This document shows positions 19,910 through 33,082 of a stretch of DNA of 64,000 nucleotides, piece after piece. Each line of letters begins with the position of its first letter. The first letter of the stretch is position 1. This stretch comes from Cyclobacterium sp. SYSU L10401 (GTDB taxonomy: Bacteria; Bacteroidota; Bacteroidia; Cytophagales; Cyclobacteriaceae), in contig NZ_WOFO01000001.1 in assembly GCF_010993705.1 (NCBI RefSeq), positions 1,020,132 through 1,084,131 on the forward strand. Reading direction: 5' to 3'. The notes under the pieces are model-generated. The model saw nothing but the letters and a program-made list of their open reading frames with translations, was not told the origin of the DNA and ran no database searches. The position numbers and the translations under genes were made by a program.

Positions 19910-20770
19910 ATGGATTCAGAAATTTTCTTAAGTAACATGCAGCAAGAAGACCTGGTGGCTGCCATGGATTTAAAGACAGCTGAAGGTTGGAATCAAACAC
20001 AGGCGGATTGGGAGTTGTTCCTGACCCAGCATCCCCGCCTTTGTCTGGTGGCCAAGGCAGAAGAAAAAACAGTGGGTACGGTGACGGCCTTTGTGTATGA
20101 AGGTAAATTGGCCTGGATTGGGATGATGCTTGTGAATCCCCGGTTCCGGAGGAAGGGGATCAGTAACCGGTTGATGCTTGAACTGATGGACAGGTTGAGT
20201 TTCTGCCCTACCATCAAATTGGATGCTACGCCTGCAGGACAATTTGTATATGAGAAATTAGGTTTCAAGAAGGAGTATTCTCTTTTCAGATGGATCAGAA
20301 AACCAGTTTCTTTGCTGCCCAATAACGACCTTTCCCCGTCGGTTTTCAAATTGGGTATTTTAGAGCTCAGGGATTTAATGGAGCTTGATGCGCAGGTATT
20401 TGGTGCCAACAGGGAATTGGTGCTCCGGCATATCTGGCATTCTTTGCCCGGGGGAGCATTCGTATGCAGGGAGCAGGGTGGGGTAAAAGGCTTCCTGTTG
20501 TGCCGAAAAGGTAGTCGGTATATACAACTGGGTCCAATGGTAGCAGAAAATGACACCATAGCTAAGGCCCTTCTCCACCAGGCCCTGATGCAGTTGGGTG
20601 AAAAGGAAGTGGTATTGGACATGGCCGCTAACCGCAGCGAAATGAAAACCTGGCTGGAGCAACAAGGCTTTGAAATGCAAAGAGAGCTGATCAGAATGTA
20701 TTTGCATACCAATGCCTGCGCAGGCATTCCGGAAAAATATTATCTTATGGCAGGGCCTGAACTGGGATGA
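19910..20770 (+). CDS. Tandem-domain GNAT acetyltransferase
   Basis: The 286-residue protein has an N-terminal GNAT domain (about 5-130) with the acetyl-CoA loop NPRFRRKGISNRLML. A second, GNAT-like domain (about 140-280) has a weaker fold signature, an arrangement common in the Acetyltransf_18-type proteins. It probably acetylates a small molecule or peptide amine in the cytosol; the substrate is not evident. It is monocistronic between the divergent ABC genes and dnaX. Confidence 0.82.
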   Translation: MDSEIFLSNMQQEDLVAAMDLKTAEGWNQTQADWELFLTQHPRLCLVAKAEEKTVGTVTAFVYEGKLAWIGMMLVNPRFRRKGISNRLMLELMDRLSFCPTIKLDATPAGQFVYEKLGFKKEYSLFRWIRKPVSLLPNNDLSPSVFKLGILELRDLMELDAQVFGANRELVLRHIWHSLPGGAFVCREQGGVKGFLLCRKGSRYIQLGPMVAENDTIAKALLHQALMQLGEKEVVLDMAANRSEMKTWLEQQGFEMQRELIRMYLHTNACAGIPEKYYLMAGPELG

Positions 20771-20912
20771 GGTTTGCAGCCAGGATAGTTTTTGGATTTT
20801 TTTGGCGCACACTTTATTTTAAATGACAAATTTTCAGTGCCTTAACTTTTGGTAAGGGGTAAAAAGGAAAGATGAGGAGATTTAAGTTCAATTAATTTTA
20901 TAAATTGCGGTG

Positions 20913-22058
20913 ATGGAAAATTTTGTTGTTTCTGCCAGAAAATACAGGCCCTCCGACTTTAAAAGTGTGGTAGGGCAAGGTCATATTACCACTACCCTGA
21001 AAAATGCCATAAAAAACAACCACCTGGCACAGGCTTTTTTATTTTGTGGCCCGAGAGGAGTAGGTAAGACCACATGTGCCAGAATTCTGGCCAAAACCAT
21101 CAACTGTGAATCCAGGCAGGATACTGGAGAAGCCTGCAATTCATGCAGCTCATGCGAGGCATTTAATTCCAACAGTTCCTTTAATGTACATGAACTGGAC
21201 GCTGCATCTAACAATACAGTGGAGGAGATTCGTAACCTGGTGGAGCAGGTGAGGTATGTGCCTCAGAAAGGGAAATACAAAGTGTATATCATAGATGAGG
21301 TTCACATGCTCACTACTTCCGCTTTCAATGCTTTTTTGAAAACGCTGGAGGAACCCCCCAAACATGCTGTTTTTATCCTGGCCACTACCGAAAAACACAA
21401 AATCCTTCCTACGATTCTTTCCAGGTGTCAAATATTTGACTTCAACAGGATTCAAATTCAGGACATCAGCCAGCACCTGGCTTATATTGCCAAAGAAGAG
21501 GAAATCGATTATGAAGAAGAGGCCCTTAGGCTGATAGCCACGAAAGCTGACGGGGCACTCAGAGATGCCTTATCCATTTTTGACCTGATTGTTACTTTTT
21601 CTGCCGGCAATAAGGTTACCTATCAGGAAACCATCAACAACCTTCATATACTGGATTACGACTATTATTTTCAAGTAACGGAAGTCTTGCTGGAGGAAAG
21701 CATTTCCAGGGCCCTGTTGATTTTTGATGAAATTTTGAAAAAAGGATTTGACGGGCATAATTTTTTGATCGGATTGAGCGAGCATTTCCGGGAATTGATG
21801 GTTTGTAAAGACCCGGATACGGTTCAATTGCTTCAGGTTTCGGAGGCGGTAAAAAGTCGCTATACTACCCAGGCCGCCAAAGCACCGCTTTCTTTTCTTT
21901 TATCGGCCCTGAATATTTGTAATCAGGCAGACATGGCTTACAAAAGCAGTAAGAACCAACGGCTACATGTAGAACTGGTTTTGATGAAACTGGCGAAATT
22001 GCCCCACGCAATCAATCTTGCGGCTGTATCTGAGGCAGATCCAAAAAAAAAAGTATAG
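20913..22058 (+). CDS. dnaX: DNA polymerase III gamma subunit (zero-frame product of dnaX)
   Basis: DnaX is the clamp-loader ATPase. The zero-frame product has 381 residues: Walker A GPRGVGKTT at about 46-54, a zinc knuckle (CES...CNSCSSC), Walker B VYIIDEVHML, the sensor motif ILSRCQIF and the domain III helices. The ATG at 20913 gives the usual start MENFVVSARKYRP; a GTG lies one codon earlier. Reading ends at TAG just after CCA-AAA-AAA-AAA-GTA, a run of ten A (22043-22052). The length corresponds to a gamma form lacking the polymerase-binding C-terminus; the missing part lies downstream in the -1 frame. Confidence 0.95.
   Translation: MENFVVSARKYRPSDFKSVVGQGHITTTLKNAIKNNHLAQAFLFCGPRGVGKTTCARILAKTINCESRQDTGEACNSCSSCEAFNSNSSFNVHELDAASNNTVEEIRNLVEQVRYVPQKGKYKVYIIDEVHMLTTSAFNAFLKTLEEPPKHAVFILATTEKHKILPTILSRCQIFDFNRIQIQDISQHLAYIAKEEEIDYEEEALRLIATKADGALRDALSIFDLIVTFSAGNKVTYQETINNLHILDYDYYFQVTEVLLEESISRALLIFDEILKKGFDGHNFLIGLSEHFRELMVCKDPDTVQLLQVSEAVKSRYTTQAAKAPLSFLLSALNICNQADMAYKSSKNQRLHVELVLMKLAKLPHAINLAAVSEADPKKKV
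22043..22052 (+). promoter_or_regulatory. A10 slippery run, candidate -1 frameshift or transcriptional slippage site
   Basis: Ten consecutive A immediately precede the dnaX stop codon. A -1 ribosomal shift, or one extra A added by RNA polymerase, enters a frame that stays open to 22639. Thermus thermophilus dnaX uses a similar A9 run. A weak ACCTACC/GGTAAGGT pairing lies downstream, but no strong stimulatory hairpin is obvious. Confidence 0.75.
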
Positions 22059-22639
22059 CTAATGAAGACAAAAATCCTGGACAAGACCTACCCCCGCCCC
22101 CAACCGGACCTGGTAAGGTAAGAGAAGGATCGACTGTAAAAAAGACCATTTCCATACCCGCCAGTCTGACCGATGTCAGAAATCAAATGAAAGCCAGACC
22201 GGTAGATAAACCGGTCGGGGAGGAAGAAAAAAAGCAGGCACCACCCAAAGAAACAGGCGGCCAACCTCAGGAGGCACTCACGGAGCAGGGTGTAAAGGAC
22301 ATGCTGGAGGAGGTAAAGATGGCTTTCAGTGAAGACCACAAAAACATGGAAATGGCCCTGTTGAAACAACCCTTTGAAGTCAGGGACTATCAGCTGGTAT
22401 TTTTTCTAAGTAAGGGGCTTCAGGAGGATTTGTTTTCCAAACTCAAACCTGAACTCACCGGTATCCTGCGCAGAAAATTTAACAACCCCGAATTGGAAGT
22501 AAGTTTTGAGGTCAGGGAAGAGGCCATTGATCCCTCAAAAAACCTGTATACATCCAGTGAGAAGTTGGGATTCCTTTTAAAAAAATCACCCGCCTTGAAA
22601 GAACTTAAAAACCGTTTTGGCCTGGAAACAGATTTTTAG
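22053..22639 (+). CDS. dnaX: DnaX tau-specific C-terminal region (-1 frame)
   Basis: The -1 frame is open without a stop from the A10 run to TAG at 22639, giving a total tau of about 575 residues from 20913. It reads SIANEDKNPGQDLPPPPTG, a proline-rich linker, then a basic segment and a folded C-terminal region ending KNRFGLETDF. This end is typical of the tau domains that contact DNA polymerase III alpha and DnaB. An internal ATG at 22187 is unlikely to be a true start. A sequencing error in the homopolymer would give the same picture. The end overlaps the convergent DUF3078 gene by four bases. Confidence 0.82.
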
Positions 22640-23619
22640 AAGTCCAGCCCGATTCCAAAATTAATGAGGTTTTGTAGCTGTATGGCCCGGGAAGAGCTGC
22701 CGTCATCCTGTTCAATAAAAACACTTTCGTCGTAAATCAGGATGGTTTCAATTCTGGTAGTAATGTACCTGTTTACCTTCAGGCTGATGACGGAATTGAA
22801 ATTGACTACCATGTTTCCGAGTTTTTCATAATTTGAAAAGAGATTGAGATCTGTTTTCCACCGGATGTTTTCCATTACCTGAATGTCAGCTGTAGTGCCC
22901 ATAGAGACACCAGCCTCAGGCCTTACTTTTTCTCCCGGGATTACACCAAAAGCGCCTACCCGGCTGAGGGAATCATCCAGAACAATGGTAAACCTACCAG
23001 TAAATGGAGAGATAATGGTTGAAAATTTTCCATCGTTTTCTAAGGAGGTTTGGTAATTTAAACCGGTAGAGGATTGTATATAGCCCGGACTTAGAAAGTC
23101 TGAGATCCTGTTGCGACTGTCTCTTTCTGCGCCGGAGGGCCGGAAATACCTGTAACCTTCCAGGAGTTGGGTCCGGGCATCAATTTGAGTGGACAAGTAA
23201 ACTTTCTCACTCAACTGTCTCCCGTATTTACTTGAAAAATTAAAGTTGTCATTTGATTTCCGCGTGGGATAGGCCCTTCCCGTTTGTCGGTTTATTCCAT
23301 AGTTAATGGAAAGTTTCGTGTCCCAGATGATATTTTCTTTTTCGTAATTGGCAAAAAGCTGAACACCTGTATTCAGGGCAAAAGAGCTCGCTCCTCCTGC
23401 TGCCCAGTTACTTAAGCTTACCTGTTGCAGACTGAAATTAAAATTCCCGCCTTTTTTCCAATATATGGGAGGCGCTTCGGTGGTAAAAATCAAAGAATCG
23501 CCTTGCATTACCAGTGTATCTCCGCCAATGATGACCGTATCAGCCTTGGAAATATCCTGAGAAAATCCGGTTTTGGTAACCACAAATAAAATCAAAAAGA
23601 AAATAATCCTACCGGGCAT
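22636..23619 (-). CDS. DUF3078 outer-membrane beta-barrel protein
   Basis: The 327-residue protein has a signal peptide (about 1-20, ending GFSQ) and the DUF3078 core, with NFSLQQVSLSNWAAGGASSFAL and FSSKYGRQLSEKVYLSTQID. Alternating hydrophobic strands and a C-terminal aromatic (GIGLDF) indicate an outer-membrane barrel. The family's function is unknown. A -7 box lies about 20 bases before the ATG. It converges with dnaX, overlapping by four bases. Confidence 0.88.
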   Translation of the reverse strand: MPGRIIFFLILFVVTKTGFSQDISKADTVIIGGDTLVMQGDSLIFTTEAPPIYWKKGGNFNFSLQQVSLSNWAAGGASSFALNTGVQLFANYEKENIIWDTKLSINYGINRQTGRAYPTRKSNDNFNFSSKYGRQLSEKVYLSTQIDARTQLLEGYRYFRPSGAERDSRNRISDFLSPGYIQSSTGLNYQTSLENDGKFSTIISPFTGRFTIVLDDSLSRVGAFGVIPGEKVRPEAGVSMGTTADIQVMENIRWKTDLNLFSNYEKLGNMVVNFNSVISLKVNRYITTRIETILIYDESVFIEQDDGSSSRAIQLQNLINFGIGLDF

Positions 23620-23639
23620 GTTTGTCTTTAGCTTTGGGG

Positions 23640-23647
23640 CAAATATA
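23640..23647 (-). promoter_or_regulatory. -7 promoter box of the DUF3078 gene
   Basis: On the minus strand this reads TATATTTG, matching TAnnTTTG, 20 bases upstream of the start codon. The -33 element is not clear. Confidence 0.5.
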
Positions 23648-23663
23648 CAGTCAATTCGTTTAT

Positions 23664-25241
23664 TTATTTTCTGATTTCAAGTTTTTGTCCTACTGAAAGG
23701 AGGTTGTCAGGTCCGATATTGTTCCAGTCTTTTAGCTCCTTGACAGAGACGCCATATTTATTGGAAATGGCATAGAGCGTGTCTCCGGGCTGGACCTGAT
23801 GATAAAGTGGATCCACCTTTTTTTTCTCCTCCCTGTTTTCCCTGACCAGAATGTCTTTGGTCCCGGATTTTTCAGGCGTATTGATTTCCTGTTTTTCAAT
23901 ACTGATAGAAGGCGCCTGTTGTTTGGGTTTGGCGGGGATCAATTTTACCCTTGCAACCGGTTCATTTCTTTTGTAGTATTTTCTCAGACGCAGGACCATT
24001 CCCGGAAGGAGTTGTTTGTCTTTATAAATGCGGTTTTTGGCCATAAGGGAGTGCAGGCGGATTCCATATAGTTGTGCTATGCCCCAAAGTGATTCACCAG
24101 GTTGTACGACATGTTCCTCTTCCTCTGCCTTGCCTTTTTTTCTCCGGGTATAATAATACTTGCCACTTTGTACCGGATCAGCCGGTTTCAGGTCGTTTGA
24201 CCGCCTCAATTTTCTCACACTGATATTGGCCTGTTGAGCCACCTGGCTTTGATTGTTGCCGGATGCCAATATTCCTCTGACACCATTGATTCGAATCTGG
24301 TCGGGTTGTCTGGCTTTATTGATATTCCCCTCTACCCGGGGGTAGCCCAGGGCATTTTTTTTAAGTGGTGATAATCCCTCATCAGTTGCTACGGGAGCAT
24401 TACTGGCCAGGACGGGCCTTTCAGGAACAATCCCCTGGAGGATGTAGGTAACGACATAGGTCCGGTCTCCGGGTATCTTGCCCCTGATTGCCCATTTGTT
24501 ATACTCCTTCAGGTGGTTTTCACTCACTCCCAGAATTTTTGATACAGTTTTCAGGTCTGTAGGTCCTGTTACAGGATACTCATGTAGGTATTCCCCATTA
24601 CTCACCAATTGGTTAACCTGTTGTTCGTAAGCAATTTTGTGGGCCAGGAATTTTTTCAGGTACCAGTAGGTCGATCGGTCTATGTCCATGGTTTGCTGCC
24701 CTCTGTACCTGTCCTTGTAGTAGTTTCTGGCACCGCCCAGACCCATTTGGTAGGAGACCAGTGTGATGGCCCAGTTGTCGAGGTAACTTTGGTGCTTTTT
24801 GAGGTAGGTTGCTGCACCCCTGGTGGCGGAAACGATACTTTTCCTTTCGTCAATCTCCTGGTCTACCCGGAGGTTAACTTCTTCAGCAGTAGCTTTTTTA
24901 AATTGCCAGAAACCAACAGCATTTGACGTGGAGACGGCATCCGAAATCAGGCTGCTTTCCTGAATGACCAGAAATTTAAAATCCTCCGGCACGCCTTCTT
25001 CCCGCAAGACACGCTCCACAACAGGAAGGTAGAGGTTAATCCTGTCCAATTTGACCTGAAAATGGGTATTGCTCCTGTATTGGGCAGCTACATCTTCCTG
25101 TATTTCCTTTTGGGCAGCAGCATTGAGGCGTAGGGTCATGCCTGCAAAATAAATGGTTTTGGGCACCTGAGGCACCTGACCTGATACAGCAGACAAACTT
25201 AATAGTAAAACAACTAAACTGCTTATGGTTATTCTGATCAT
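23664..25241 (-). CDS. MltD-like lytic transglycosylase with two LysM domains
   Basis: This enzyme cleaves peptidoglycan glycan strands in the periplasm. The 525-residue protein has a signal peptide (about 1-21) and an SLT domain (about 65-230): catalytic E95 in VIQESSL, NAVGFWQF, and SYQMGLGG. Basic linkers separate two LysM domains, one around HVVQPGESLWGIAQLYGI and one at the C-terminus with YHQVQPGDTLYAISNKYGV. LysM repeats bind glycan strands. It follows the O-methyltransferase gene by six bases and is probably the third gene of an M16-methyltransferase-transglycosylase operon. Confidence 0.92.
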   Translation of the reverse strand: MIRITISSLVVLLLSLSAVSGQVPQVPKTIYFAGMTLRLNAAAQKEIQEDVAAQYRSNTHFQVKLDRINLYLPVVERVLREEGVPEDFKFLVIQESSLISDAVSTSNAVGFWQFKKATAEEVNLRVDQEIDERKSIVSATRGAATYLKKHQSYLDNWAITLVSYQMGLGGARNYYKDRYRGQQTMDIDRSTYWYLKKFLAHKIAYEQQVNQLVSNGEYLHEYPVTGPTDLKTVSKILGVSENHLKEYNKWAIRGKIPGDRTYVVTYILQGIVPERPVLASNAPVATDEGLSPLKKNALGYPRVEGNINKARQPDQIRINGVRGILASGNNQSQVAQQANISVRKLRRSNDLKPADPVQSGKYYYTRRKKGKAEEEEHVVQPGESLWGIAQLYGIRLHSLMAKNRIYKDKQLLPGMVLRLRKYYKRNEPVARVKLIPAKPKQQAPSISIEKQEINTPEKSGTKDILVRENREEKKKVDPLYHQVQPGDTLYAISNKYGVSVKELKDWNNIGPDNLLSVGQKLEIRK

Positions 25242-28882: not shown

Positions 28883-29306
28883 TTTTCATCAGTCGAAAAT
28901 TCTATATTATCCCTTATCTAATGATTTTTATGGGATAGTAAAGTAAATATACGAAATTTAATTCTATTTTTTAGTGAGAAGTTCAAATTGGGATACGGTA
29001 ACCAGTTATTATCAGTTGGGTAGTTGGCGACTATGTTTACAGGAAATGACATCCCTTTTTTCTGGTCTTTAATCTGTTCGAAAATTTCTTAATTTTTTTT
29101 TAAGGAGGTTTTTCGAGCCCAAATGCACTTTCCTTAAAACGATTTACATTTATCATTTTTCGTAATCAAGGTCACCGTAATCTATTGATTTTCATCACTT
29201 TTACAGGTTTGGAAATTTCCTTTTTTGTCCTCAACTTTGGCTTTAGATAGGTACTGAAAGGATAGAAAAACCTGTTGAATTGTTAAATTTTTAACTTTTA
29301 CATGTT
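28883..29306. other. Intergenic region without recognised gene
   Basis: This is a 424-base, AT-rich divergent region between the T9SS protein and the small membrane protein. I see no TAnnTTTG box, strong hairpin or coding frame, only a T8 tract near 29093. Confidence 0.4.
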
Positions 29307-32928: not shown

Positions 32929-33082
32929 AAAGATTTACCACTTGCTAAGTGGAGGAAGACGCTTTTTCTAAGGGAAAAACTTGAATGATTAACCTCTAAA
33001 AACCGTAAATTTCTTTACGGAATAGAGAAAAAAAAATTACATTTATAATACAAGATTGATTTATACCCCATAAATAACCTTA

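Follow-up and report, generated by a model that had tools for sequence, protein, structure and literature searches.

A ten-adenine run in Cyclobacterium dnaX as a probable transcriptional slippage site for the production of both gamma and tau

The dnaX gene of Cyclobacterium sp. SYSU L10401 is, judging from comparative sequence analysis, quite likely to produce both clamp-loader subunits, gamma and tau, by transcriptional slippage at a run of ten adenines (A10). We infer RNA polymerase to be the main slipping machine, as we do the ratio of the two products and the use of both proteins. The gene lies within the 64,000-nucleotide stretch of DNA analysed here (the window), where its parts are arranged as follows.

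20913..22058, + strand: zero frame of dnaX, giving the gamma subunit (381 aa), from ATG 20913 to the stop TAG at 22056-22058, read directly from the sequence
22031..22033, + strand: stop codon TGA of the -1 (tau) frame, separated from the run by 9 nt; from 22034 onwards this frame stays open
22043..22052, + strand: putative A10 slippage site, made up of the third base of CCA and then AAA AAA AAA, followed by GTA TAG
22056..22058, + strand: TAG ending gamma in the zero frame, 3 nt after the run
22060..22062, + strand: TAA closing the frame used by neither gamma nor tau (the third frame), 7 nt beyond the run
22052..22639, + strand: 195-aa C-terminal extension of tau, encoded in the -1 frame and ending with TAG at 22637-22639

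The zero frame ends CCA AAA AAA AAA GTA TAG and its protein ends PKKKV; the run in the window is exactly ten adenines long and the zero-frame stop comes two codons further, as the preliminary description of this DNA had it. Because of the upstream TGA in the -1 frame, a shift to tau must fall within 22034-22055, and the predicted tau would measure 380 + 195 = 575 aa. Messages lacking one A or carrying two extra would enter the frame that the TAA at 22060-22062 closes. The tau stop shares a few bases (22636-22639) with the end of a convergent minus-strand gene (22636-23619).

In the mechanism we propose, RNA polymerase transcribing the ten adenines would generate a mixed set of mRNA lengths. 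Messages of templated length, or with three A more or fewer, would be read to the TAG at 22056-22058 and give gamma, those with one A more or two fewer would bring the tau frame into line and give tau, and those in the remaining frame would stop at the TAA at 22060-22062, leaving a gamma-sized product.

The identity of the two open reading frames agrees with this assignment. The first matches the NCBIfam model PRK14971 (NF011531, DnaX gamma/tau) with 725.2 bits over model positions 1-366, so that gamma alone passes the curated cut-off of 685; it also matches TIGR02397 (438.4 bits) and contains the Pfam domains DNA_pol3_delta2, DNAX_ATPase_lid and DNA_pol3_gamma3. The second matches positions 436-613 of the 614 of PRK14971 (E 4.2e-12), and the tau C-terminal region is thus present. 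A single dnaX was found in the 5.9-Mb genome, the next match having an E of 5.6e-10. Over 55 pairs from 11 congeners (the congener with A9 was left out), the median pN/pS of the second frame is 0.38, falling to 0.21 in its last 115 codons, as compared with 0.084 for 300 codons of gamma. By this measure the second frame evolves as a protein, under purifying selection, which bears out the preliminary claim of a -1 frame that stays open for 195 codons and encodes a tau-like C-terminus. A PDB profile search with the tau C-terminus reached a best E of 0.17, and its AlphaFold model (mean pLDDT 78.2) found no match at E 0.001 or better in a fold search. The model is weakly similar to the E. coli tau C-terminal domain (2aya; E 0.22, rank 31), and its globular end shows a weak likeness to one chain of 4tps, which from its length we take to be DnaA domain I (TM by target length 0.72, E 0.25).

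The break in the gene is shared throughout the genus. In all 12 Cyclobacterium genomes compared, two of them single-contig, the zero frame ends at about the same point (open frame of 382-386 codons), and in 11 exactly A10 is followed by one codon and the stop; the remaining congener, L015 (G006), has A9 and a stop a few codons further. The run and the stop that the preliminary description proposed to look for in close relatives are thus found there. The dnaX of C. lianum, which is identical to congener locus L007 over the stretch compared, shares 92% of gamma with the window. A chance origin of the run is ruled out by its conservation among these congeners and in the 338 loci described below. 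It is the position of the run and its conservation that go beyond chance, not the occurrence of runs of such length in the window, where nine-A matches number 4 against 7.95 expected from shuffles. Two more A9 runs lie in the window, at 29093-29101 (- strand) and 33028-33036 (+ strand). Genome-wide, 33 ten-A words collapse by hand to 26 runs, and among the 23 of these that were examined for other recoded genes only L405 was flagged besides dnaX; it looks like two neighbouring chance open reading frames and was rejected. The ten-A runs L392 and L397 lie within open frames.

We extended the comparison to the phylum. A family search matched 231 of 245 genomes, and from the 150 matches listed we read 130 loci, together with three further congeners; the order search contributed 60 regions plus given loci, the phylum search 40 regions plus 30 loci, and named loci were added to those of family, order and phylum. 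The resulting set, in which Cyclobacteriaceae are oversampled, comprises 338 distinct loci that have five or more consecutive A near the junction. Outside it stand seven loci that have no run of at least 5 A (L238, L245, L246, L247, L251, L274 and L230), the contig-end loci L364 and L367, and E. coli. Among the 150 family matches listed, 133 have open frames of gamma length and 17 are continuous. The gamma-length loci that were read carry A9-A12 at the junction in 119 of 120 cases, the exception being L088 with A6, and all 13 continuous loci read in the family carry A9-A11 there.

Over the whole set, a run of at least 9 A is present in 308 of the 338 loci (308 of 345 when the seven run-less loci are counted too), and in 265 it is exactly A10. 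If three lysine codons were AAA at each gene's own AAA share, at least 9 A would be expected in 96.6 of the 338. Even in genes with a GC3 above 0.6 such a run is found in 49 of 65, where 7.8 are expected. By default, 208 of the 338 loci make gamma (gamma-first) and 130 make tau (tau-first); at least 9 A are kept in 207 of the former and 101 of the latter. By this comparison the run is retained whichever product lies in frame, and the default frame is immaterial. Uninterrupted relatives without a homopolymer had been named in the preliminary description as evidence that would speak against its reading. Most of the uninterrupted relatives do keep the homopolymer, as the 101 of 130 attest; the seven loci without a run of 5, counted apart from these 130 distinct loci, do not.

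On one FastTree gamma tree of all 338 loci, the default product changes at least 30 times among the loci with A9 or longer (17 changes on internal and 13 on terminal branches, as against an average of 84.7 with shuffled labels), a figure that rests on one quick tree and to which sequencing errors may have contributed some of the 13 terminal changes. Locus L183 (A9) differs in default from its near relatives, either through a real change or through a homopolymer error. The tau part follows the run in only a short open reading frame in L050 and L055 (about 344 and 173 nt), as if there were a second frame break.

Gamma-first loci require a -1 shift for tau in 204 of 208 cases. The other four (L015 (G006), L116 (G039), L205 and L259) require +1 or -2 and show an altered run or preceding base; these may be real changes or homopolymer errors, the latter applying in particular to the two that are A9. 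Such loci favour slippage, because slipped mRNAs can supply these shifts and a -1 ribosomal shift cannot.

A further signature lies in the stops that follow the run. Slipped mRNAs enter all three frames, whereas a -1 ribosomal shift uses two of them and never the third. Frame closure was scored in 255 representatives with A9 or more (172 gamma-first and 83 tau-first), with codon shuffles as the expectation; this test, like the folding test below, was made before 26 further loci joined the set. In 223 of the 255, stops close both non-tau frames no more than 21 nt past the run, where 37.8 such loci are expected (162 of the 172 gamma-first loci, with 27.1 expected, and 61 of the 83 tau-first loci, with 10.7 expected); for the third frame of the gamma-first loci, closure comes within 12 nt in 142 of 172, compared with 66.9 expected. 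Since per-locus counts overstate independence, we repeated the test with a single representative of each tree cluster. In this thinned set, a stop within 12 nt closes the frame tau-1, equivalent to the third frame in every locus that needs -1 (as the 204 gamma-first loci above do), in 63 of 80 gamma-first loci, where 31.0 are expected; among tau-first loci, 49 of 62 have both frames closed within 21 nt, where 7.9 are expected. In E. coli dnaX, a proven ribosomal case and the one gene available as a control, the stops lie at 3 and 35 nt. That the third frame is closed even though a -1 ribosomal shift never enters it favours slipped mRNAs. Frame closure alone does not prove slippage, because Pontibacter, with A7, has both frames closed too, at 2 and 7 nt, and some of the third-frame stops could go back to tau-first ancestors, where gamma is the product of that frame.

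Among the alternatives, the one that fares best is joint action, in which slipped mRNAs are accompanied by some ribosomal slipping on the long run. The site suits both processes, and Antonov et al. (2013; PMC3711429, in the portions available) describe the two mechanisms as interchangeable, at least at certain sites. However, no ribosome-specific feature stands out in the A10 loci, and we regard joint action as a tentative possibility, appreciably less probable than slippage by RNA polymerase as the main source of tau.

A purely ribosomal origin of tau, by -1 programmed frameshifting on A_AAA_AAA or A_AAA_AAG within the run, would amount to the E. coli mechanism with its roles reversed, and we consider it unlikely. 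Several observations do speak for it. The window's A10G contains the slippery heptamer A_AAA_AAA as well as AAAAAAG, both good sites for a -1 ribosomal shift, and -1 is both the shift needed in nearly all gamma-first loci and a natural one for the ribosome. Atkins et al. (2016; PMC5009743, as far as available) put forward Chlorobium phaeobacteroides as a candidate with reversed roles and signals like those of E. coli, and the one-direction-only rule of Antonov et al. (PMC3711429, available portions) would point to the ribosome. Ribosomal cassettes also seem to be present in the relatives Pontibacter, L088 and L179, to which we return below. However, slippage predicts the same -1 bias if single-A insertions dominate, and the statement, in the accessible part of PMC5009743, that Thermus makes 'mRNAs with extra bases' is in line with insertion-dominated slippage. 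The +1/-2 loci and the closed third frame argue against the ribosome, as does the length of the run. A heptamer is enough for a -1 ribosomal shift; ten adenines are nevertheless kept, which fits slippage.

The stimulators that accompany ribosomal frameshifting are likewise scarce at A10 loci. In the window no strong structure lies downstream of the run (folding z of +1.3 over 50 nt and -0.2 over 80 nt), in agreement with the preliminary remark that no strong hairpin was visible, and the Rfam DnaX element RF00382, which E. coli dnaX matches with 96.8 bits, has no match in window positions 20000-24000 at E up to 5. On average, 50-nt downstream folding is nearly absent from gamma-first loci, with a mean z of -0.13 in 120 of the 172 representatives against -0.08 in a control 200 nt further; in the 83 tau-first loci the corresponding values are -0.45 and -0.31. 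Over 80 nt there is a small excess at the run in both classes (-0.33 against -0.13 in 120 gamma-first loci, and -0.60 against -0.30 in 83 tau-first loci). A pseudoknot scan of loci with A9 or longer fires in 5% of 76 gamma-first loci (shuffles, 4%) and in 12% of 58 tau-first loci (shuffles, 2%), and it is because of this last difference that a few such loci may carry structures.

Upstream of the run, the 20 nt immediately before it are more similar to a Shine-Dalgarno (SD) sequence than those further up in 134 loci (-4.81 against -2.19 kcal/mol; share of loci at -6 kcal/mol or below, 0.39 against 0.07), and the window itself has a duplex of -5.6 kcal/mol compared with -7.2 for E. coli. As a sign of enrichment this signal was rejected, for synonymous resampling matches it (difference of -0.32, s.e. 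0.26, in 79 gamma-first loci and of -0.38, s.e. 0.26, in 55 tau-first loci). Moreover, Bacteroidia ribosomes do not recognise SD sequences, according to the available text of PMC9976891, and F. johnsoniae frameshifts poorly at the prfB motif, according to that of PMC12421855.

Lineages in which the run is short offer a natural contrast. The clearest is Pontibacter, whose dnaX is tau-first with A7 in 30 loci read of the 50 matching genus genomes and in 11 named loci:

L160, L406-L434, L334, L338, L342, L344-L346, L348, L351, L354, L355, L358: Pontibacter dnaX loci

Here the -1 stop lies 2 nt after the run, and 5 nt after the A7 follows GGUAG(C)...(G)CUACC enclosing GGCACC, which is able to pair with GGUGCC beyond; the element is a candidate H-type pseudoknot with stems GGUAG/CUACC and GGCACC/GGUGCC. 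In the 34 distinct rows of the alignment 93.1% of cells are paired, as against 20.8-58.3% in slid controls. These rows show no covariation beyond shuffles, because the paired columns hardly vary. A simple pseudoknot scan is positive in 41 of 41 Pontibacter loci and in 17% of their shuffles, although it is not specific, since E. coli dnaX also scores. Together, the A7 and the candidate pseudoknot look like a ribosomal frameshift cassette. G536 is the one genome of this genus (that of L160) with a dnaX open frame of 401, compared with 617-711 in the others.

Two further loci carry A6G (A_AAA_AAG). The gamma-first L088 (G242) has a perfect 7-bp hairpin from 6 nt on, with a folding z of -5.0 in one test and of -2.95 to -3.93 in another, whereas its seven congeners with A10 range from +1.2 to -2.7. 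The tau-first L179 (G363) has a long hairpin 6 nt on (MFE -25.5, z -7.1), a signal much like that of E. coli dnaX. Besides Pontibacter and L088 there are 17 short-run loci, and L179 alone among them reaches a z below -2 over 50 nt. Since the other 16 do not, a lost run is not in every case accompanied by structure; in several of the 17 the run is found away from the junction, and such loci may lack the site altogether. Pontibacter, L088 and L179 nonetheless look like exchanges of slippage for ribosomal frameshifting, and the presence of stimulator-like structures in these short-run lineages, set against their near absence from A10 loci, is at the level of predicted folding an internal contrast that favours slippage at the latter. 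Transcriptional slippage, which the preliminary description had offered as an alternative, thus emerges from the comparison as better supported than a ribosomal shift.

The remaining explanations fare worse. The second open reading frame could be translated separately as a C-terminal protein, by restart or from an internal start, and the window does contain an in-frame ATG at 22187. Between the upstream stop of the second frame and 30 codons past the run, however, an ATG occurs in only 11 of 207 gamma-first loci and any of ATG, GTG or TTG in 60 of 207, and the tau-first relatives fuse the same two parts, all of which makes separate translation very improbable. Phase variation, by which the run would change length in the DNA and some cells would make tau, is very improbable too: homopolymers do mutate, but 11 of 12 congeners, and 265 of the 338 loci, keep a length of exactly ten, and tau is expected to be necessary in every cell. 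Finally, error-prone as homopolymers are, a sequencing or assembly error or a pseudogene is a negligible prospect, already refuted by the congeners, in all 12 of which (two single-contig) the zero frame ends at this point, with purifying selection on the second frame and the gene's standing as the sole dnaX found in the genome arguing against it as well.

The organisation of this gene has precedents. Two-ORF dnaX genes were announced by Antonov et al. (2013; PMC3711429) from 17 genes in 12 genera, nine of them with 10 As. As the available portions of that paper describe it, gamma is encoded in the zero frame and tau in -1 with 10 As at the junction, and transcriptional realignment was proposed there too, so that the architecture is no different from the one reported here. 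The window has the same hallmarks (the tau frame in -1, poly-A at the junction and the gamma stop directly after it), and its dnaX is therefore a further case of a known gene organisation.

The preliminary description likened the gene to those of Thermus and E. coli, and in polarity the likeness fails: both of these genes encode tau in the zero frame and yield gamma through the shift (PMC3711429, PMC5009743 and PMC1088944, accessible portions), whereas here gamma is the zero-frame product. The gene of Thermus thermophilus is otherwise similar, with an A9 run at which transcriptional slippage occurs (Larsen et al., 2000, as cited in PMC1088944 and PMC5009743) and, according to the available text of the same two sources, nearby stops in both other frames, and it shares with the window a long run of at least 9 A and the close closure of both non-tau frames. 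E. coli dnaX, with A_AAA_AAG, an SD sequence and a hairpin (RF00382), also makes two products, the shorter of which ends at the shift site after the AAA+ part; besides the reversal of roles, the window differs from it in having A10 rather than A6G, no strong hairpin, no RF00382 match and ribosomes of a class that does not read SD sequences (PMC9976891, available text). The core of the preliminary proposal, gamma (381 aa) from the zero frame and tau (about 575 aa) through a shift at the A10, is supported by the comparative evidence.

A literature search found no paper on dnaX frameshifting in Cyclobacterium nor on dnaX in Pontibacter, and on dnaX slippage in Bacteroidetes only Antonov et al. 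(PMC3711429); a search for dnaX frameshifting and Flavobacteri gave none on dnaX recoding, as judged by titles and the beginnings of abstracts. The available portions of Antonov et al. contain no phylum-wide survey, default changes, third-frame closure or exchange of mechanism, and the default changes, the phylum-wide third-frame signature and the exchange of mechanism were not found in print by these searches.

We think it somewhat more probable than not that A10 has long served dnaX of the Bacteroidota as a slippage switch indifferent to frame, and that ribosomal signals replaced a lost run in at least three lineages (the candidate pseudoknot of Pontibacter and the hairpins of L088 and L179). 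Because RNA polymerase would make all three frames at such a switch, selection would keep the run and close the non-tau frames while ignoring the default product, and this indifference could explain why the default has changed so often on the tree.

If this reading is true, one gene shows natural exchanges between transcriptional and ribosomal recoding. Ordinary ORF calling in such genomes sees a gamma-only DnaX and misses the tau part, which lies in the adjacent frame and in E. coli connects polymerase with helicase. The loci assembled here form a natural comparison: to make the same two products, most lineages apparently rely on slippage and a few on ribosomal frameshifting, all in bacteria whose ribosomes make no use of Shine-Dalgarno pairing. 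Why gamma and tau are both kept, and which machine slips, thereby become directly testable questions.
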